Source: a virus
Length of the DNA: 36,681 nucleotides
Strand: one strand, 5' to 3'
IMG/VR virus record: IMGVR_UViG_3300027902_000020
Location: 1 to 36,681 of that record
Shown here one piece after another: positions 21,954 to 32,088 of the stretch (positions are counted from its first letter, which is position 1; every line of letters begins with the position of its first letter). Under the pieces are notes generated by a model that worked only from the letters and a program-made list of their open reading frames with translations, had not been told where the DNA came from and did no database searches. The translations under genes and the position numbers were made by a program.

Positions 21954-22473
21954 CTAATAAGTCGTTAATTGTAAATTCGTCTCCCACACGCATTAAATTC
22001 CACCAGTGAAGACTCTCTATTTGCTTCCCCATCCACGATCCCTTTTGGGTGTTGCAGAAGTCGAGTCCGCTTTCTTGGCACGCCCTTTTGATTCCATCTC
22101 CCTCGCGGTTCCAAGGTGCAAAGAACGCATTGATGGGCTTGCAAGACCCGACCATCCTTGTGGAATTCTCTCTCCAATATTCGAGGGATTTTTTAATGTC
22201 TTCGAGGCATTCTTCATAAGACAGGACGCTGTAATCTTTATGCTCCCATCCGTGAAGTCCTATTTCCAGATGCGGAGCGGTGGCTAGATAGTAAAATAAT
22301 GCGTGATTCTGCCAAAGGTCTTTCATTAGAACCGCCGCCGTGTGAATCTTTCCTTCTTTTATAAATTGTTCGTGGAGTTTCTTGAATTGGTATGTGTTGG
22401 TAAAAACATTTACATCGTCATCCCGTATGAGTATTGAATTTGAACCAGGGGTGATTTCTGACATTGCCTTCAT
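21946..22473 (-). CDS. polysaccharide deacetylase (CE4, NodB-like)
   Basis: 175 residues. The CE4 motifs are recognisable: IRDDDVN (residues 16-22; metal-binding Asp), LHGWEH with His74 and His78 (metal ligands), FFAPWNR (117-123; motif 3). Shorter than secreted NodB enzymes and with no signal peptide, so it acts in the cytoplasm, perhaps on a sugar-nucleotide or lipid-linked glycan. Sits between a DUF616-like gene and a methyltransferase. Confidence 0.78.
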   Translation of the reverse strand: MKAMSEITPGSNSILIRDDDVNVFTNTYQFKKLHEQFIKEGKIHTAAVLMKDLWQNHALFYYLATAPHLEIGLHGWEHKDYSVLSYEECLEDIKKSLEYWRENSTRMVGSCKPINAFFAPWNREGDGIKRACQESGLDFCNTQKGSWMGKQIESLHWWNLMRVGDEFTINDLLDA

Positions 22474-22963
22474 TTACTTTAACTTTTATATCTGGGAATT
22501 TACTCAATACGTAGGGAAAGGAAATCTGGTCTCTTGTGCTTCGCTTCATTTCTTCCCACCACGCTTCGTTGAATTCTTTTACTCTCGGGGTGTTTCTTCT
22601 CACCATTGTTCCGCATTCGTATAGTCCGGCGTGTTCGGGAAATCCTTGCGACCGGTAATAATCCACTTGCGGTTTTAGTTCTTCAATCCTCCCTGCGTCC
22701 GATTCTGCTTCTTCGTATATACAATCTCGGCAAGGATGCTTCCAGACTCCTATATCCGCGTCTCCTAAAAAATGTTCTATGAGTAATTCTTCTGGTACCT
22801 GTAAAAAGATATTCCCATCCAGCCAAACACTAATATCGTCATCTATAAACTTGTGAGCCAGAATTTTGTATTTCTTGGCTTCCATCACTCCTCCGTCTCC
22901 CGTGAAGCATTTTATATCGTCCCTAGGAGCGTCACGTTGCCCTGTAATGCACGTAAATATCAT
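22418..22963 (-). CDS. DUF616-type glycosyltransferase-like protein
   Basis: 181 residues with the layout I associate with DUF616/TOD1: an opening FTCITGQRD strand, IKCFTGDGG, YKILAHKF, the WLDGNI (D-G-N) metal-binding segment near residue 47, WKHPCRDCIYEEAE, the AGLYECGTMVRR region, and WWEEMKRSTRDQISFPYVL. It overlaps the previous gene by four bases (ATGA) and the deacetylase by 56 bases. Likely transfers a sugar. Confidence 0.72.
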   Translation of the reverse strand: MIFTCITGQRDAPRDDIKCFTGDGGVMEAKKYKILAHKFIDDDISVWLDGNIFLQVPEELLIEHFLGDADIGVWKHPCRDCIYEEAESDAGRIEELKPQVDYYRSQGFPEHAGLYECGTMVRRNTPRVKEFNEAWWEEMKRSTRDQISFPYVLSKFPDIKVKVNEGNVRNHPWFKFNTHTG

Positions 22964-23610
22964 AGTGGGTATATTCCTCGTTTCATAAAATCTAGGTCCT
23001 CCTGCTGGTAATCTCGCTTTCCTGCCTTAATTTCTTTTTGTATATTCTTCAGTCTATCGGGATTGAGCCAAGCATAATGCAGAATCTTCCAGTCTTCGGG
23101 TGTTTCTATCTGGACATATTGTAAAACTCCGTCGTAGGTGATGTGTGAATGGTAGCCTTCGGTGAAGTATAGGTTCTTGTCGTTATAGAAAATCTTATTG
23201 ACGTTAGTTCTGACCGGATTCTCAAAATGATGCAGTGGGTCTTGGATTAGGTTGTAGAATTCCATTCCCATTGTAATCGGCGCGGGATGAGGTTCGATTC
23301 TTACGCTTTCAATGAATTCCCGATAACCTTCTCCGACTAACTTCTCGTCTTGGTCTATATTCACTATCCAGCAGTCTTTCGGCATCTTCGAGAGCAGCCA
23401 GTTTCTTTGCTTGCTCATCTCTTCGAAAGGATTTTGATAGAGCGTGAGGTTATAGACTTTCTTATATTTATTTAGGAGTTCCCACGTTCCGTCTTTTGAG
23501 CCTCCATCCACTATATGAAATTCATCCACTATCGGATAGACACTTTCTATCGAGCGAAGTATCTCGTGAATCCCGTCCTGGCAGATTAGGTTTCCAATAA
23601 TTTTTGCCAT
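22960..23610 (-). CDS. family 2-type glycosyltransferase
   Basis: 216 residues from the ATG at 23610 (MAKIIGNLICQDG); the frame is open to 23652, but that would extend the overlap with the upstream gene. GT-A features: the DEFHIVDGGSKDGTWELL strand-loop, the IVNIDQDEKL metal motif, HSHITYDG and a C-terminal ILHYAWLNPDRL segment. A short family 2 enzyme of the WaaE/SpsA type. Confidence 0.8.
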   Translation of the reverse strand: MAKIIGNLICQDGIHEILRSIESVYPIVDEFHIVDGGSKDGTWELLNKYKKVYNLTLYQNPFEEMSKQRNWLLSKMPKDCWIVNIDQDEKLVGEGYREFIESVRIEPHPAPITMGMEFYNLIQDPLHHFENPVRTNVNKIFYNDKNLYFTEGYHSHITYDGVLQYVQIETPEDWKILHYAWLNPDRLKNIQKEIKAGKRDYQQEDLDFMKRGIYPL

Positions 23611-25853
23611 TGTTTTACGATAGTTGACCATTCGTATGTTTTCTTCGCCCATTCTTTATTTCCAATGTCTCCGTTTTCTATCAGGTTTATATATTCCTCA
23701 TTATGTTGCGCGTCTCCGAAGGTCGCTTCCCTGTCGTACCATCTTTTGCAATCCGTATGAACTTTTCTGCATTGAACCGTCTCATATAGTGCGAAAGCGT
23801 CGGAAGTTGCCATTCTACATTCTGCCAGTTGTGCTTTAACCGCCGAAATACAGTGAATTTCTGCAAAGTCGGTACAATATGCGAATACACCCGCTTCAAG
23901 GTACTTTTTGGCTATCTCCCTATGGTTAATCATATATCCGCCCTCTGCGCGCCCCTCAGACACTAATAGATTGAATCTAGCGACCTGTGTTGCCTTCCAC
24001 GCCATCATTTCCTTGTTATCAGCTTGGAAGTCTGAAAATATCTCCCATCCGTAATACCAGGCTAACCTCCAAGGCTTATCCGGTTGCCTCTTGATGAGTT
24101 CCTCGAAGATGTCGAGCGTTGCGTCTAAGTGTCTATCTGGGGACGAGGTATTCAAAATAAGGTATTTGTTCTTTTCAACCTTTTCCTCAAATAAACTAGG
24201 ATCGACCCCATTTGGAATAACAACCACTTTGTCATCCGGTACATTCGGAAACAGTCTTCGGTGTGCCTTGCTCTTAACGAATATCTTGTCAATCTTTGCC
24301 ACTCTTTCGGGTGTGAATTCTTCTTTGGGAAGGACATCGTGCAGGTCTAGGAAAATCTTTGTAGAGTTTATCTTTATATCAACGGGTTTGGGGTGTCTCC
24401 AAATAATCGTCGCGTCCTGTTTGTCTTTGGGATTCCATTCCCAGAAAGGCTTGTATTGAACGCCGTCGTAGACCTTCGCACCTCCGCAGTTGTTATAAAC
24501 TGTCACATTCCAATCTTTTGAAAGACCTTTCGCGAGATTGATTACAGCTTCCTCGCTTCCGCCAATTCCGTCTTTCATCGCTACATCGGGATTCCAAATC
24601 TTTGAAGTGTATGAGCAATAGAATACAAGGTCTTTTCCGCTTGAGGTTTCTTTCACGAACGTAGCATTGTAAGCCGCGCACATCTTGGGGTGCTGTCTTA
24701 TCCTTGGGTCCATTTTGTCAAAGTACTTCTTTAGTTTCTTTTTATCTTTAATCTGCAAAATATCGCTTGTCGCTTTTTCAACTTTCTTGGTTATTTCAAA
24801 AACATCATTGAAAACTTTAGCCTTGTCTTGAATTCGTTTGTCCTTTGGAAACAGTCTTTTCAGTTCTTCCAGAATCTTAGTCGCCTTTTGGTATTCGCCC
24901 GTTTCAAGGTATATGTCCATCATCTGCATCAGGGGGTTGTAGTCGTAATCCCTGGGGTTATGGACAATCATCGTCATATCCGGTTTTGGTAATTGGAGTC
25001 CTATCTCTAGGAAATTGAGAGCCTGTTCAAATCTTCTGTCCTTTCTTAATGATTCACCTAGTTTGAAAAATGCGGCGGGATAAATCGGCCTCAACTCCAT
25101 TGCCCTGTATAAATAAGTCCGGTCTTCGGCCAAATCGCTTAGAACTAGGTAGGCTTGATACTTTTCTTCATCTGAACCGGAGACTTTCACGAACTTTTCA
25201 AACCATTCTATCGCTTTATCCGTGTTTCCCACCCCCCAGTTGGCGTTTGCCATCAAATAATAGCTCTTTGCTTCGGTTGGTTCGTCTTTTAACGCCGCTT
25301 CAGCAATTTCTAGGTTTCTTTTGGCATTCACTGTTGCTCTTTTCCCATCTGTTAGGTGCAAAACTTCTATTTCTTTTATAAAATAACTTTCTATTTCTCT
25401 ATTATTCTTAAAATCCTCGTGAACTCTGCCAACCCACTCGATGCATCCGTCATTTTTGACGATTCGGGTCTTTAAATGCTTTACAGTGCAATCTCCGTCA
25501 TTGAAATCATATAGGTAGAACATCACGCCACAGTCTATTGCCTGCTCCTTCATTTTTTCAATAACTTTCGGCAGGTGTTCTGCTCCTTTTAGGACATCAT
25601 CAGCATCGAGCCAAAGGATATACTCGCCTTTAGCGTGGGAAAAGTTGAAGTTCCTGGCCTTGGCGAAGTCATTTATCCAATTAAAATGAGACACATTCGC
25701 TCCGTACTTCTGACAGACTTCCTCGCACTTCTTGTTTTCTCCCGTGATTGTGATTTGAATATCTCCAACATACGGCGAAACATAAGAAAGGCATCTATCC
25801 AGGAGTTTAGCTTCCGCATCCGTGGCTTTAGTTATCATACAAAGGCTAAGCAT
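23586..25853 (-). CDS. GT2 - TPR - GT4 fusion glycosyltransferase
   Basis: 755 residues. Residues 1-150 are a GT2 domain (LCMITKATDAEAKLLDRC, ITGENKKCEEV, the WLDADDV motif at 81-87). Residues about 170-345 are TPR-like helical repeats (LEIAEAALKDEPTEAKSYYLMAN, YPAAFFKLGESLR). Residues about 395-755 are a GT4-like GT-B domain with a GGSEEAVINLAKGL N-terminus, IPNGVDP and a C-terminal EAGVFAYCTDFAEIHCISAVKA donor-site region. Such fusions can perform two successive sugar transfers on one chain. Overlaps its neighbours by eight and 25 bases. Confidence 0.85.
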   Translation of the reverse strand: MLSLCMITKATDAEAKLLDRCLSYVSPYVGDIQITITGENKKCEEVCQKYGANVSHFNWINDFAKARNFNFSHAKGEYILWLDADDVLKGAEHLPKVIEKMKEQAIDCGVMFYLYDFNDGDCTVKHLKTRIVKNDGCIEWVGRVHEDFKNNREIESYFIKEIEVLHLTDGKRATVNAKRNLEIAEAALKDEPTEAKSYYLMANANWGVGNTDKAIEWFEKFVKVSGSDEEKYQAYLVLSDLAEDRTYLYRAMELRPIYPAAFFKLGESLRKDRRFEQALNFLEIGLQLPKPDMTMIVHNPRDYDYNPLMQMMDIYLETGEYQKATKILEELKRLFPKDKRIQDKAKVFNDVFEITKKVEKATSDILQIKDKKKLKKYFDKMDPRIRQHPKMCAAYNATFVKETSSGKDLVFYCSYTSKIWNPDVAMKDGIGGSEEAVINLAKGLSKDWNVTVYNNCGGAKVYDGVQYKPFWEWNPKDKQDATIIWRHPKPVDIKINSTKIFLDLHDVLPKEEFTPERVAKIDKIFVKSKAHRRLFPNVPDDKVVVIPNGVDPSLFEEKVEKNKYLILNTSSPDRHLDATLDIFEELIKRQPDKPWRLAWYYGWEIFSDFQADNKEMMAWKATQVARFNLLVSEGRAEGGYMINHREIAKKYLEAGVFAYCTDFAEIHCISAVKAQLAECRMATSDAFALYETVQCRKVHTDCKRWYDREATFGDAQHNEEYINLIENGDIGNKEWAKKTYEWSTIVKQWQKLLET

Positions 25854-26396: not shown

Positions 26397-26483
26397 TCAA
26401 ACCTGCGGATAGGCGGTTTGACGACCCATCCGAGGCAAATTAAATTGTTTAACTTGTATCCTTAAGTTAGGAGAAATCCTAAC
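26397..26483 (-). other. two stem-loops after the capsid gene
   Basis: A perfect 7-bp stem with a tetraloop (26466-26472/26477-26483) covers the last capsid codons; a second perfect 7-bp stem with an 11-base loop lies at 26397-26403/26415-26421 in the intergenic region. Neither is followed by a T-run. They may stabilise or delimit the capsid mRNA. Confidence 0.45.
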
Positions 26484-28070
26484 GCATAGTAGTTGCTGTT
26501 CGCGTTCTTGTATTCTACCGTGAACTTTCCAACGACTGCGCGCTGATCGTAATCGCCGGATCGTGCCAAACCTGTGTCAATCATCGGTCTCTGAAGGAAA
26601 GCGATGCCTAACTTGTCTGGGTTGATAGCGAGAACTCTGTGCGTGGTGTCGCCGGATTGATAGATATAGCGGTGAGCGTGGACTTGCAATTTTCCAAATC
26701 CCGTTTCGACAATTTGTTAATCCTCTTGCGAGGTGCTAGGTCATTTCTGCCTAACTCTCACGATGTCGCGTGAGGTCGGACTATATCATCACCAAATCTT
26801 TCATTTAGTGCTTGACGTATAGTCTCTGAGGATTCATTTCGGTTTAATGTTTTAATCTCGACAAGTATATCTATTTCTCTAGGAGTGTATGCCATTGTGA
26901 TGGGATGCCCCTTGCTGTTCTTCCATCTCTTCATCTTGTTCCGGTTTAGAATATACTCTTCTAACAATTCAGCCTGCTTTTTTTTCCCGATTAAGTATTC
27001 TCTCAGTGTTTGAATTGTTTTTAATACCGACTTATAACCATCTATCCTTATTTGTTTGCAGGGCTTGCTCCATTTCCCGTTTGCCACTCTTACGTCTGGT
27101 TTTCTGTGGGTGTAGTGTTTCGCAACTCCGATTACTTCCAGTATTCTGTTGCATTCTGTAATAATCTCTTCGTTGGAATTTACTATGCAAATGAATGGGG
27201 TTAGCCTTACGTGTTCGTGATGTTTATAAGTTTGCATTGAGATTGTTCCCTCGCCGTCTATTATGCCAGCGAGCCAACCAAAATGTCTTTCCTGCTGATT
27301 ATCCATTGGTTCATCCATAATGTTTTCACCTTATAGGTAATTATGGTTTTAAGAGTTTCCAGCATTTGGTCAAGTTTTAGATGTGCTCGATTAGTTAACA
27401 CATCGACTGCCAACACAACTTCCTTGACATTCGTCCCTGTGACAACATTGGTTGTTTTGTTGGTGAAGTCATCTGTCTTATCTTTGAGAACTTTTCCAAG
27501 GAAGAGGTCGGTGGCCACATCGCCGTTCGACTGGTTCCAGCATTCTGCTTGCAATCCTTTGAGGATAGAAGCTGACCATACTGTACCAGAGTTCATAGCG
27601 GTGTAGGTATTTGCCGTACTGATTCCTTGAAGAATTCCACGGAATTTCGGAGCCGTTCCAGAAGCACCCGTGACGAGTGTTGCTCTCACAACATCGAATT
27701 CAGCGGCATTGTGCCAATCAACCATGGCTTTGGCGGTCTGGCGAGCCAGTTCGTTTTCGCTATGGTAGTGGTCAAGGAGCTGTTGAGTTTTGGTAACCTG
27801 GAATGGAATTGCAATATTCTCTATGAGGTTCGTGTCGCGAGAAGGAGCTGTTCGAGTAACTGAGGTGTAATCCGTATCTTCGGCTACGGCTGCTGTAGCA
27901 GCGGTGCGATATGTGTCGGTGAGGGTGCTGTGGATTGTGTCCGTAGCAGAACCCTTCGGCAACATATTGAAGATAGAGCTTTCCTGGGCGGTGAGGTACT
28001 CAATGAGACCTAATACATCTTCTTTGCGAGACGCATCTCCGTAAGAGGTGAAAATATTTGCTGATGCCAT
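26462..28070 (-). CDS. major capsid protein, SU10/DUF5309 type, split by an intron
   Basis: Join of exon 1 (28070 down to 27398) and exon 2 (26709 down to 26462), giving 921 bases and 306 residues. Exon 1 holds the HK97-fold N-terminal arm and core (ESSIFNMLPKGS, ARQTAKAMVDWHNAAE). Exon 2 begins ETGFGKLQVHAHRY and ends AYALGF-like strand SNYYALGF. Without splicing, the reading frame runs into the intron and stops at 27261. Splicing restores VDVFETGFGK, the counterpart of the VDVYESDFG strand of this capsid family, and the QRPMIDTGLARSGD segment (family LRPF...LAKTGD). Codon 225 is the split one. Confidence 0.9.
26710..27397 (-). mobile_element. group I intron in the capsid gene, 688 bases
   Basis: Minus strand. 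P1: exon GAUGUGU (27404-27398) with intron GCACAUC (27386-27380), ending in the required U-G pair. P10: intron UCGA (27390-27387) with exon-2 UCGA (26709-26706). P3: CUUGAC (27374-27369)/GUCAAG (26816-26811). P4: UGCUG/CAGCA (27364-27360, 27297-27293). P5: CCAUAAU/AUUAUGG. P6: GGA/UCC. P7: GACUAUA (26824-26818)/UAUAGUC (26785-26779). P8: CACUAAAU/AUUUGGUG. P9: CUCACG/CGUGAG. The 3' end is G at 26710 (omega G). The AUAUAGUCC stretch is the textbook P7 3' strand. All elements agree with one fold. Confidence 0.92.
26758..27318 (-). CDS. LAGLIDADG homing endonuclease inside the intron
   Basis: 186 residues with the motif GWLAGIIDGEGTISM (residues 14-28), a good LAGLIDADG helix plus first catalytic acid, and a helical C-terminal region. 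One motif is visible, so the protein would act as a dimer. The start lies in P5 and the stop after P7-P9, so the frame overlaps the intron core: the last 20 residues are encoded by P7, P3, P8 and P7. Cuts intronless capsid alleles and drives intron spread (known of the family). Frame differs from the capsid exons. Confidence 0.92.
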   Translation of the reverse strand: MDEPMDNQQERHFGWLAGIIDGEGTISMQTYKHHEHVRLTPFICIVNSNEEIITECNRILEVIGVAKHYTHRKPDVRVANGKWSKPCKQIRIDGYKSVLKTIQTLREYLIGKKKQAELLEEYILNRNKMKRWKNSKGHPITMAYTPREIDILVEIKTLNRNESSETIRQALNERFGDDIVRPHATS

Positions 28071-28712: not shown

Positions 28713-28976
28713 TTAATAAGCGTCAGGTCGACCTTCCTGGCGATCCCTATCCAATCGACGAAAGATGCTCTCCTCTTCGGATGGCAATTCATCGACTGCG
28801 TAGGCTGTGTTAAATATATCTGAAATCCATTTCTCAATGATTACTCTGGCTGTTTTCTTGGCGGTGAACTCTTCGTAGCTGGTTGAGTCCAGTTCTACCT
28901 GCCTAATTAAATCCGCCAATGCCAAGAGGGCGTCTTTGTTGTCTGTTAGGAATTTCTTGGCGGTTTCTTTTTTCAT
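28713..28976 (-). CDS. hypothetical protein, 87 aa
   Basis: Helical soluble protein with acidic C-terminal end (VDELPSEEESIFRRLDRDRQ). It overlaps the portal gene by four bases (ATGA) and lies 19 bases before the scaffold. Small helical proteins between portal and scaffold occur in podoviruses but their function is generally unclear. Confidence 0.6.
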   Translation of the reverse strand: MKKETAKKFLTDNKDALLALADLIRQVELDSTSYEEFTAKKTARVIIEKWISDIFNTAYAVDELPSEEESIFRRLDRDRQEGRPDAY

Positions 28977-30913
28977 CTAACTGGTGTTGGTGAAAGATTG
29001 GCTTCAGTTGGCATTCCCTGCGTAGCGGGCTGGGGATTCTGCTGGGTTGCTTGCATTGGCTGTCCGGTTGTTCCCGGCATCACTGGATTTTGGGATGGCT
29101 GCAGTCCAGCTTGAGCCTCTATCTGCCTTTGGATGTCAGGCGGAGCGTCTTTGTAATTCAGGCTTTCGGATGGTGATTTTCCTTGTTGCGTTTGGGGTTG
29201 CATCTTCTGAACCATTTTTTCCGCATCTAGTCCGAGTGTGTCGAATATTTCACGAGCCACTCCATCCACAGGCATTCCCAATCCTCCTAAAATATTCATT
29301 GCTTGAATTAGCTGATTGACCATCACACCTTTATTTATCTGTTCGTCACCGATTTCTATGTCTATGTCGAACTCAGTGTTAAATAAGTCTTTGCGAAGTT
29401 CCGGGAATCTATCTTCTCCATATTGAGCCATTTCGGTAGCCAGTTTTTCAATTTCCATCTCCTGTTCCTGCTCGAACTTTTGGATGGCCGCGTTGGCGTC
29501 ATCAATGCTAGTGAGGGGTGTCCTTGCCAGAAAGTCGGCGAACTCTTTTTCCTTTTTCTCATAAATAACCGCTTTGGCCAGTTCTCTGTCAAGTTCCCTT
29601 AGGGCGTCTACACTTCCGGTAATTCTAACTATTTCTCCATTCTTGATTGTATCCCTGATAATGGGGATTAGTTTTTCTTCGAGAACCTTTTTAAGATTAA
29701 GGAAGATTCCCTCCATAATCAGATTGTATCCCTTCGATGTTCCGCGCTCTTGAATCAGGGCATTGGTGGCTGGCTGTTGGGCAGCTTGTTCATCTGTTAT
29801 TTGAGTCTGCGTAACTCTTTGTCCCCACAGGTAAGCCTGCTCTTCGTCTTTATAACTTGATGGATCAACTGTTCCGGTGTCTAGTCTGGTTATGTCTCCT
29901 TCCTGTGAGGTCTTAATTGCTCCGGTTGAAAAGAGTCTCTTGAGTTGTTGCGGGGTGATGTTTCCTCTCACCTCCCAAAGACCAGCCTGGGCTATGCGCG
30001 CCGTGTTTAATCTGATATTTATAATCTCGTTCAAGTATGTCTGAATCTGAAACAACACCTCTGGCACTCCTCGTCCATCGAATCTATTGACCAAATCTCT
30101 AAACTTAAACTCTTGATAAGGATGACCTTTTGTTTCTTCCATTTTGTGAACGATGTACGAATTGCCATTGCTTGAATAGCAAACTTTCCCATAGACATAA
30201 TCTTCGTCCTTTTCGTTTTCAGTGAAGACAAACTTCGGAAAGTATCCATAGCGTTCATAGACTTCGACATAAGGAATTTGAGTGTTCTGTCCTCCTTGCA
30301 TATCAAGTCCTGTTCTATCTAGGCTCTTTGAACCCTTTACTTCTTCTTTGTTGTTCCAGTCATAGGCCTTAAATTCCGGCAAAGTCAAAAGATTTCTTTC
30401 AATCACTGGCGTTTCGTCTAGGTTTGGCGCGGTTGGGTCGACAGTCATATTCAAGCGGTCAACTACCCTCAATTTCATCTCTCCGCTTTCTTTCCATACT
30501 TTTAGAAAAGCCGTTCCGTCAATGACTATGCTTCGCAAAAGGTCATTCAGTTTCTTTCCAAAATGAATCTTGTTTAGGTAGTATCGCAAAACATATCTGA
30601 ATATTTGAGCGACTTTGTATGAATCAGGCTTCTTGGCTTTGACTTCGATGTCCTTGGTGTCTATGTCTATGTTCTTGAGAACTGTTTCGACTGTCCATTC
30701 AGTGAAAGGAATAAATATCTTCTTCCGGCCGGTCTGGGGGTCTCGTTCTTCTTCAAACACTCCGAAATAGTTTCTTCTGGCTCTTTTAACCGCCCGTTGC
30801 CCGTCATAAAAAAACTCGTCCGTAACATAGGCTTGGTCTGATTGCCATTCAGATAATTCGTCTTTGAGAATCGCTATGGCTTTTTGTTCCCCCGTTGTGG
30901 GTTGGTATGTCAT
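28973..30913 (-). CDS. portal protein
   Basis: About 646 residues from the ATG at 30913; a GTG at 30925 overlaps the terminase stop and is an alternative. N-terminal clip/wing region with YDGQRAVKRARRNYFGVFEEE, then VDRLNMTVDPTAPN, a VRGNITPQQLKRLFSTGAIKTSQ segment, and a long helical stem (about residues 380-560). The length and long helical C-terminal barrel fit the P22-like portals of podoviruses. The last 60 residues are a Q/P-rich disordered tail, as in many portals. Confidence 0.85.
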   Translation of the reverse strand: MTYQPTTGEQKAIAILKDELSEWQSDQAYVTDEFFYDGQRAVKRARRNYFGVFEEERDPQTGRKKIFIPFTEWTVETVLKNIDIDTKDIEVKAKKPDSYKVAQIFRYVLRYYLNKIHFGKKLNDLLRSIVIDGTAFLKVWKESGEMKLRVVDRLNMTVDPTAPNLDETPVIERNLLTLPEFKAYDWNNKEEVKGSKSLDRTGLDMQGGQNTQIPYVEVYERYGYFPKFVFTENEKDEDYVYGKVCYSSNGNSYIVHKMEETKGHPYQEFKFRDLVNRFDGRGVPEVLFQIQTYLNEIINIRLNTARIAQAGLWEVRGNITPQQLKRLFSTGAIKTSQEGDITRLDTGTVDPSSYKDEEQAYLWGQRVTQTQITDEQAAQQPATNALIQERGTSKGYNLIMEGIFLNLKKVLEEKLIPIIRDTIKNGEIVRITGSVDALRELDRELAKAVIYEKKEKEFADFLARTPLTSIDDANAAIQKFEQEQEMEIEKLATEMAQYGEDRFPELRKDLFNTEFDIDIEIGDEQINKGVMVNQLIQAMNILGGLGMPVDGVAREIFDTLGLDAEKMVQKMQPQTQQGKSPSESLNYKDAPPDIQRQIEAQAGLQPSQNPVMPGTTGQPMQATQQNPQPATQGMPTEANLSPTPVR

Positions 30914-30918
30914 ATTGT

Positions 30919-32088
30919 TCACCAATCTGTTTGTGCAAAATTTTCAAATCTTACATCTTGAGTTGGTTGGTTTGTATATAAAGCGTATCGTAGGGCATCT
31001 AAAGCGTGGTCATTCTCTTTCACTGGCTTCTCTGGTTCATTGTTCTCTGGTTTCTTGTCCGGGTATCGGTAGGTCTCCAGCTCCCAGATTAGGTTCTTGC
31101 AGTCGGGATGGATGTGGATTCTTCCTTGCTTAAATAATTCTCTAATGTGGTCAATCCCCGCAACAATGTCTTTACTAACTTCTCGGCAATTAAGACCCGC
31201 TCTATTAAGTATTGCAATTCGGTCTGGTTCGGCGGGATCGGGGTAGACTTTGGTAGATTTGTATAGCCGTGCTTGTTCACTTATTTGTTCGGTGGTTTGT
31301 TTGGATTTATACCACTCTTCTCTTATCCAGTTATGTGAGTCCGAATCTATTTTAATAGGAATGATTGCCGCCGGATTTGTATATCCAAAGTCGATTCCAA
31401 GGATTGTGTCTGTAAATGTTTCCGGGAAGTCTGTGGTGACGTGCTTTTCTCTGCTAAATTCCTTATAAACTAATCCTTCTGTTTTTCTAAAGTCCGCCAA
31501 ATACTCTTGGGCGAATCTGTCTTCCGGTATTTCTTTTTTAGCTTTGTCTAATTCCTCAATTGGAAGATGAGGATTATCGTAGCTTGTAAAATGAAAACTC
31601 TTGTAGTCTTTGTCTTCTTGTTCTTTATTGTATAAATCGTAGAAGTGGTTGAATCCTTTTGGGGTTGAGATGAACATCACCTTCCCCTTGGTGTCCGTAA
31701 GTGTTGGACGAATTACCTCTTCCCAGTTCACCCAGAAGTTTCTCATCATTGCTATTTCATCTATCACAATGAAATCAAATGACTGTCCCCGGAGCGTTTC
31801 AACTGCTTCCCATCCCCTTAGGTAAATCATTTGCTTGCCAATTCTTATCTCCAGCCTCGACCCATTAAACTCCGCCATCTCAAATTCTTTCTTTAACATT
31901 TCCCACGCTATGTCTCTTGCTTGCTGATAGGTCGGAGCTATATAAGCTATTCTTACCTTTCCAGCGGCAATCTTTGCGGCTATTTCTTTTACAGCCAGAG
32001 TGGTCTTGCCAAAACGACGACCGCAATTGATAACCCTAAACCGACTCTTGTCCCTCGCTATTGTTGCTTGTGCTGGATGCAATGCCAT
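30919..32088 (-). CDS. terL: large terminase subunit
   Basis: 389 residues. ATPase: CGRRFGKTT (Walker A, 22-30) and FIVIDEIA (Walker B, 106-113). Nuclease: GIDFGYTN (231-238) with Asp233, and DHALDAL (360-366) with the last metal-binding Asp. The order and distances are normal for a short TerL of the podovirus kind. It packages DNA into the procapsid through the portal, whose gene follows at once. Overlaps TerS by 53 bases. Confidence 0.97.
   Translation of the reverse strand: MALHPAQATIARDKSRFRVINCGRRFGKTTLAVKEIAAKIAAGKVRIAYIAPTYQQARDIAWEMLKKEFEMAEFNGSRLEIRIGKQMIYLRGWEAVETLRGQSFDFIVIDEIAMMRNFWVNWEEVIRPTLTDTKGKVMFISTPKGFNHFYDLYNKEQEDKDYKSFHFTSYDNPHLPIEELDKAKKEIPEDRFAQEYLADFRKTEGLVYKEFSREKHVTTDFPETFTDTILGIDFGYTNPAAIIPIKIDSDSHNWIREEWYKSKQTTEQISEQARLYKSTKVYPDPAEPDRIAILNRAGLNCREVSKDIVAGIDHIRELFKQGRIHIHPDCKNLIWELETYRYPDKKPENNEPEKPVKENDHALDALRYALYTNQPTQDVRFENFAQTDW

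Follow-up and report, generated by a model that had tools for sequence, protein, structure and literature searches.

Introns within phage capsid genes have been described in several systems. In mycobacteriophage LittleE, the major capsid protein (MCP) gene carries an insertion of ~820 bp; RT-PCR demonstrated its splicing, and the N-terminal sequence obtained for the capsid protein from virions reads across the splice site (PMC3706429). A capsid intron is also present in the lactococcal phage Tuc2009 (PMC3706429), and crAss-like phages of the Delta and Zeta groups carry group I introns in their MCP genes, one of these MCPs being split into five fragments (PMC7886860). Mobile, ORF-bearing phage introns, also in capsid genes, are already known, and the locus described here adds one clear example. 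LittleE resembles it in that exon 1 ends in U, the intron ends in G and carries a LAGLIDADG-like ORF, and an intron-free relative (Omega) exists, whereas its endonuclease ORF lies on the opposite strand and its MCP and phage group are different (PMC3706429). The crAss-like phages are large gut phages with recoded stops, and what they share with our locus is the intron class and the host gene (PMC7886860). In addition, Stenotrophomonas phage StenR_269 (OR838459) has an annotated 'intron homing endonuclease' with 30% identity to the endonuclease of our intron, directly beside the MCP gene. Unlike ours, it is annotated as a free-standing gene between the scaffold and MCP genes, and the MCP is annotated in one piece. 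In this cultured phage (L031, 2962-3411) the endonuclease gene lies immediately upstream of the MCP gene, which is uninterrupted.

The window, that is, the whole stretch of 36,681 nt analysed here (IMG/VR record IMGVR_UViG_3300027902_000020), contains an MCP reading frame on the minus strand that is interrupted by an insert (27397-26710). The features of the interrupted gene are as follows:

27398-28070, minus strand: exon 1 of the MCP gene, codons 1-224 and the first base of codon 225 (SU10_MCP match)
26710-27397, minus strand: group I intron, 688 nt, with its terminal G (omega-G) at 26710 (Rfam, splice-site search, consensus fold, L002 alignment)
26462-26709, minus strand: exon 2 of the MCP gene, up to the stop codon (SU10_MCP match; contiguous with exon 1 in L002)
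27261-27263, minus strand: stop codon at which the capsid frame first terminates when unspliced, 135 nt into the intron
26758-27318, minus strand: homing endonuclease ORF, 186 aa, with a single LAGLIDADG motif (WLAGIIDGEG) and an I-CreI/I-CvuI fold
27327-27332, minus strand: AAGGTG, resembling a Shine-Dalgarno sequence, 8 nt ahead of the ATG of the endonuclease ORF (from the sequence)

Translation of the joined exons gave 921 nt and 306 codons with a sole, terminal stop. As the preliminary description had claimed, the capsid frame stops early unless the insert is removed: read from 28070 without splicing it terminates at 27261, giving 269 aa versus 306 aa when joined. In profile searches, the spliced product matched Pfam SU10_MCP (PF17236) over residues 12-295 (154.6 bits, E 5e-45), a full-length profile match well over the curated cut-off of 24.1 bits, and the earlier assignment to the SU10-type capsid proteins was thereby confirmed. 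It also matched the PHROG 1328 major head protein (1.6e-34). Profile searches further placed a terminase large subunit upstream of the MCP gene (30919-32088), and the gene at 28973-30925 gave a weak head-tail adaptor match in PHROG; because these two lie nearby, the head module here is of an ordinary kind. Closely downstream of the capsid gene, the structural region (22418-25853) holds three genes resembling glycosyltransferases (TOD1/MUCI70-like; GT2; a 755-aa GT2-TPR-GT4-like fusion).

The exact junction was examined using an intron-free relative. The virus contig L002 (IMGVR_UViG_3300036766_000507), from another metagenome, encodes the nearest relative of the window's MCP, with 89% identity, and the joined window exons aligned with it over 233 nt, across the predicted junction, with 85% identity and zero gaps. 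With 15% of its DNA differing, L002 is an intron-free relative at the window site, not an isogenic allele. Most of the more distant SU10 MCPs in L005-L029 (except L014) are likewise uninterrupted over this site. Intron-free alleles of the target site, as expected for a mobile group I intron, are therefore present. Furthermore, we enumerated splice sites blind, from U-ending 5' sites with a guide-strand G and G-ending 3' sites with P10, taking into account an open joined frame and the capsid-HMM score. The best solution was 27398/26709, the very pair named in the preliminary description, so that enumeration and gap-free alignment agree on those sites. A 7-bp P1 was found in ~2% of shuffled intron starts, and P1 alone is thus not decisive.

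These data bear on two other explanations of the insert. Were it a mere endonuclease-gene insertion, the capsid would be built from two separately translated halves; split structural proteins do exist, and an internal TTG in exon 2 could start a 75-aa ORF (26689-26462). However, the two MCP halves join without gain or loss of a residue relative to L002, the insert ends follow the group I rules for P1, P10 and omega-G, and the 75-aa ORF is without the first residues of the exon-2 strand. We consider this arrangement very improbable. An intein, removed by protein splicing, would account for the interruption of a conserved protein motif and for the LAGLIDADG domain carried within it, but the length of 688 nt is not divisible by 3, the capsid frame meets a stop within the insert, an RNA core is present and no intein splicing domain was found with Pfam and PHROG profiles. 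On frame and in-frame stops the intein was rejected, and we regard it as virtually impossible.

L002 has mobile elements of its own. At 4365-5000 it holds a different group I intron, inserted at MCP residue 143, with an HNH ORF that lies inside the P1 loop, as the guide strand overlaps the end of the ORF. A further HNH-type ORF (L002 6037-6672) stands between the post-capsid ORF and a glycosyltransferase gene and is absent from the corresponding place in the window (25815-25841); it is probably a free-standing mobile endonuclease.

The intron of the window, read as RNA, forms the following elements together with its flanking exons:

27398-27404, minus strand: P1, 5' exon strand GATGTGT, with the U of the splice-site U.G pair as its last base
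27380-27386, minus strand: P1, internal guide strand GCACATC
27387-27390, minus strand: P10, intron strand TCGA, pairing with exon 2 at 26709-26706
27369-27374, minus strand: P3, 5' strand CTTGAC
26811-26816, minus strand: P3, 3' strand GTCAAG (pairing covaries over 55 related introns)
27359-27363, minus strand: P4, 5' strand GCTGG
27294-27298, minus strand: P4, 3' strand TCAGC
26818-26824, minus strand: P7, 5' strand GACTATA (Rfam alignment)
26779-26785, minus strand: P7, 3' strand TATAGTC (Rfam alignment)
26790-26810, minus strand: P8 hairpin (Rfam alignment, consensus fold)
26757-26777, minus strand: P9 hairpin, CTCACG/CGTGAG (Rfam alignment, consensus fold)

Both splice sites follow the expected pattern, with 7 bp in P1 (GATGTGU/GCACAUC), 4 bp in P10 (UCGA) and G26710 at the end. 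The covariance-model check proposed beforehand succeeded in part. Rfam RF00028 (Intron_gpI) matched the minus strand at 26912-26757 with 40.8 bits (E 8e-9 when the local stretch was searched and 3e-7 over the entire window), but this falls below the curated gathering score of 50 bits, because the ORF between P4-P6 and P7 splits the model. The model misplaced the 5' half of the core; the true half gives P3 as 27374-27369/26816-26811 and P4 as 27363-27359/27298-27294. Two relatives with the same core and little or no ORF exceed the cut-off, the third intron of L044 (70.9 bits) and that of L164 (77.2 bits).

The P3 pairing was assessed over 55 related introns that had a recognisable P4 and had not been selected on P3. 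On average 5.56 of the 6 positions pair, compared with 3.85 (sd 0.11) when the strands were shuffled among introns, and the pair types are diverse across the 55. This covariation is strong support for the fold. In addition, the consensus fold of 45 related introns contains P4, P5, P6, P8 and P9; its P3 was not counted as evidence because P3 had been used to select those sequences. The Rfam match, the 45-intron consensus and the P3 covariation together identify the conserved core of a group I intron, and the fold first proposed for this insert, with P1 and its U.G pair, P3, P4, P7, P8, P9, P10 and the terminal G, is upheld by the pairings, the covariation and the consensus. Group I introns of subgroup IA have P7.1/P7.2 as features, and in the window intron P3' follows P7 immediately and leaves no space for them.

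The low Rfam score would also fit a mobile intron or pseudogene that no longer splices, in a genome that makes a truncated capsid protein. Against this, the core helices are all preserved, as are P1, P10, the terminal G and the endonuclease ORF, both exons are stop-free with full SU10_MCP similarity, and loss of the MCP is impossible for a virus; we judge a non-splicing insert unlikely. Separately, we observed that the unspliced capsid frame stays open for ~45 codons past the 5' splice site (27261-27397), across P1, P3, P4 and the endonuclease start, in which the window intron differs from introns with an early in-frame stop. It is possible that ribosomes reading from exon 1 into the intron interfere with the folding of P1-P6 or with splicing.

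The endonuclease ORF occupies most of the intron. It starts in the P5 region, with P4' read as ..QQ.., and its last ~25 codons traverse P7, P3', P8, P7' and P9. Sequence-profile support was weak (Pfam PF14528, 1.1e-3, below the cut-off), and when viral and genome contigs were scanned with the single sequence, neither relatives nor a close homologue turned up, nor did a search with the exact window-core pattern yield relatives. Relatives were recovered by the alignment query only, built from three MCP-linked endonucleases. An AlphaFold2 model based on 24 relatives (pLDDT 85.3) had I-CvuI and I-CreI as its best Foldseek matches (E ~1e-7). The LAGLIDADG motif and the I-CreI fold place the product in a known family of intron-encoded homing endonucleases. 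With I-CreI and I-CvuI, whose genes lie within rRNA introns of algal chloroplasts, the window endonuclease has the fold and the single LAGLIDADG motif in common, at 16-18% identity. The C-terminal 'SSETIR...DDIV' was considered as a protein domain and rejected; it is the ribozyme core (P7, P7') read in frame, and the model is of low confidence there. Such core-encoded tails are common to several related endonucleases, and in L014 the terminal G of the intron is the last base of the endonuclease stop TAG.

Very probably, then, the MCP gene of the window, which belongs to a tailed phage, holds a mobile group I intron with an endonuclease, which splices to give a 306-aa capsid protein and spreads by homing. 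The transcribed RNA would fold as a P1-P9 ribozyme, and an external guanosine would attack after U27398, which contributes the U to the U.G pair of P1. In the second step, exon 1 would attack with its released end after G26710, which would join 27398 to 26709 and restore the SU10/HK97-type capsid protein. The endonuclease would be translated from the internal ORF with its own ribosome-binding site and, acting as an I-CreI-like homodimer, would be expected to cut intron-free MCP alleles near the VDV(F/Y)ExxFG codons; repair of the break would copy the intron into the cut allele. Because the MCP is required in hundreds of copies, splicing would have to be highly efficient, for which LittleE provides a precedent. 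Virions could form only if a mobile intron in so highly expressed a gene were spliced out almost completely.

Introns with the same or a very similar core were found in IMG/VR (CTCAGAGACTA(T/C)ACG-core introns of L014, L044, L065, L164, L194, L216, L225, L252 and others). They share with the window intron the P3-P4 arrangement, MCP host genes and, often, a related LAGLIDADG ORF, but their insertion sites differ, the L164 intron (274 nt) is ORF-less and the ORF of the third L044 intron is decayed. Within SU10-type MCPs, the introns of L216, L225, L252 and L164 lie at an LH|EW site, all in the same phase, with the first L044 intron 4 nt upstream. Those of L194, L044 (second) and L002 (residue 143) lie between LH|EW and VDV. 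At the VDV(Y/F)ExDFG site, three divergent SU10 MCPs carry introns near that of the window, which is taken as position 0: L065 at -4 nt, the third of L044 at +6 nt and L014 at +8 nt. These four introns thus fall within 12 bp at different positions, with related cores; three have intact related endonucleases and the third of L044 a decayed one. The arrangement suggests that introns either arrived several times at a single conserved target or slid along it. Since the window is a metagenomic virus record, an assembly or sequencing artefact was also weighed. Introns of this kind occur in the homologous genes of independent contigs, several of them sharing the insertion motif, and a chimera would not yield P1 and P10 pairing with the flanking exons; we hold an artefact to be extremely improbable.

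The L044 locus (2401-4735) is one SU10-type MCP gene with four exons and three group I introns, of which the first has a two-motif LAGLIDADG-like ORF and the second is ORF-less. Its second and third introns were recognised by Rfam, and the first was located by the core pattern and splice-site search. On L194, a second group I intron match over the Rfam cut-off (3424-3652) was observed upstream of the MCP intron analysed on that contig. The automatic splice-site search fixed no sites for L036 and L052.

To see which genes host such introns, IMG/VR was scanned for the core sequence, which gave two samples with 142 distinct introns in total. An MCP-like exon 2 was found in at least 56 of the 142 (22/36 in the sample defined by the core of the window itself, 34/106 in the other), a lower bound with MCPs called by similarity to PHROG-identified head proteins. 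Some of the remaining introns are in apparent tRNA-gene, tail or portal contexts, and among the recognisable protein-coding hosts in IMG/VR the MCP gene ranks first, both for this intron type and for this endonuclease clade. A pattern intended as a control, for a different intron subgroup, gave zero matches; its replacement gathered the same broad intron family and is the second sample, not an independent control. Endonuclease homology, followed with the alignment query, gave 80 loci, and 62 of these, distributed over several MCP families, have an adjoining MCP gene or fragment, usually directly downstream, a figure that describes the clade of the three MCP-linked query endonucleases. When near-identical endonucleases were merged, 47 of 62 clusters had an MCP, and PHROG labels of the downstream ORFs agree (phrog_1357, 23 members; 267, 12; 10, 8; plus others). 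In cultured phages, two endonuclease queries either matched nothing or reached distant relatives, whose neighbours are thyX and a DHH gene rather than an MCP gene. A relaxed P7-core search between endonuclease and MCP was positive in only 6 of the 24 loci examined, and part of the 80 may be endonuclease genes that stand free beside the MCP gene, as in StenR_269, rather than introns.

Of the preliminary interpretation, the intron, its splice sites and the SU10 MCP have stood, and neither the LAGLIDADG endonuclease nor the mobile nature of the intron had been mentioned. Its view of a capsid gene as an unusual intron site is not supported, given the published capsid introns (PMC3706429, PMC7886860) and the rank of the MCP among hosts in IMG/VR; for this intron and endonuclease group, whose relatives lie beside capsid genes in many unrelated phages, the capsid gene looks like a favourite target and not an odd one. 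On balance, we lean slightly towards a lineage with I-CreI-like single-motif LAGLIDADG endonucleases that is specialised on the MCP genes of tailed phages. It would have spread over several MCP families without easily detected similarity, with repeated insertion into a small number of conserved codon runs (LH|EW and VDV(Y/F)ExDFG in SU10-type MCPs) at slightly shifted nucleotide positions, with up to 3 copies per MCP gene. On that view, the group I introns of uncultivated phages would have their chief protein-coding refuge in the MCP gene and not in DNA-metabolism genes. Should a single intron and endonuclease lineage indeed concentrate in the capsid genes of phages unrelated to one another, gene calling and phylogeny that rely on the MCP would miss or truncate many MCPs, and intron-encoded nucleases aimed at the capsid genes of rival phages could act in phage-phage competition. 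This possible wider capsid bias, which would interest specialists, matters more than the single example. On L163, L186, L202, L203 and L236, related introns were observed to be followed by short frames like those read through the 3' halves of tRNAs, which suggests that the same intron family may also occur in tRNA genes of virus contigs.
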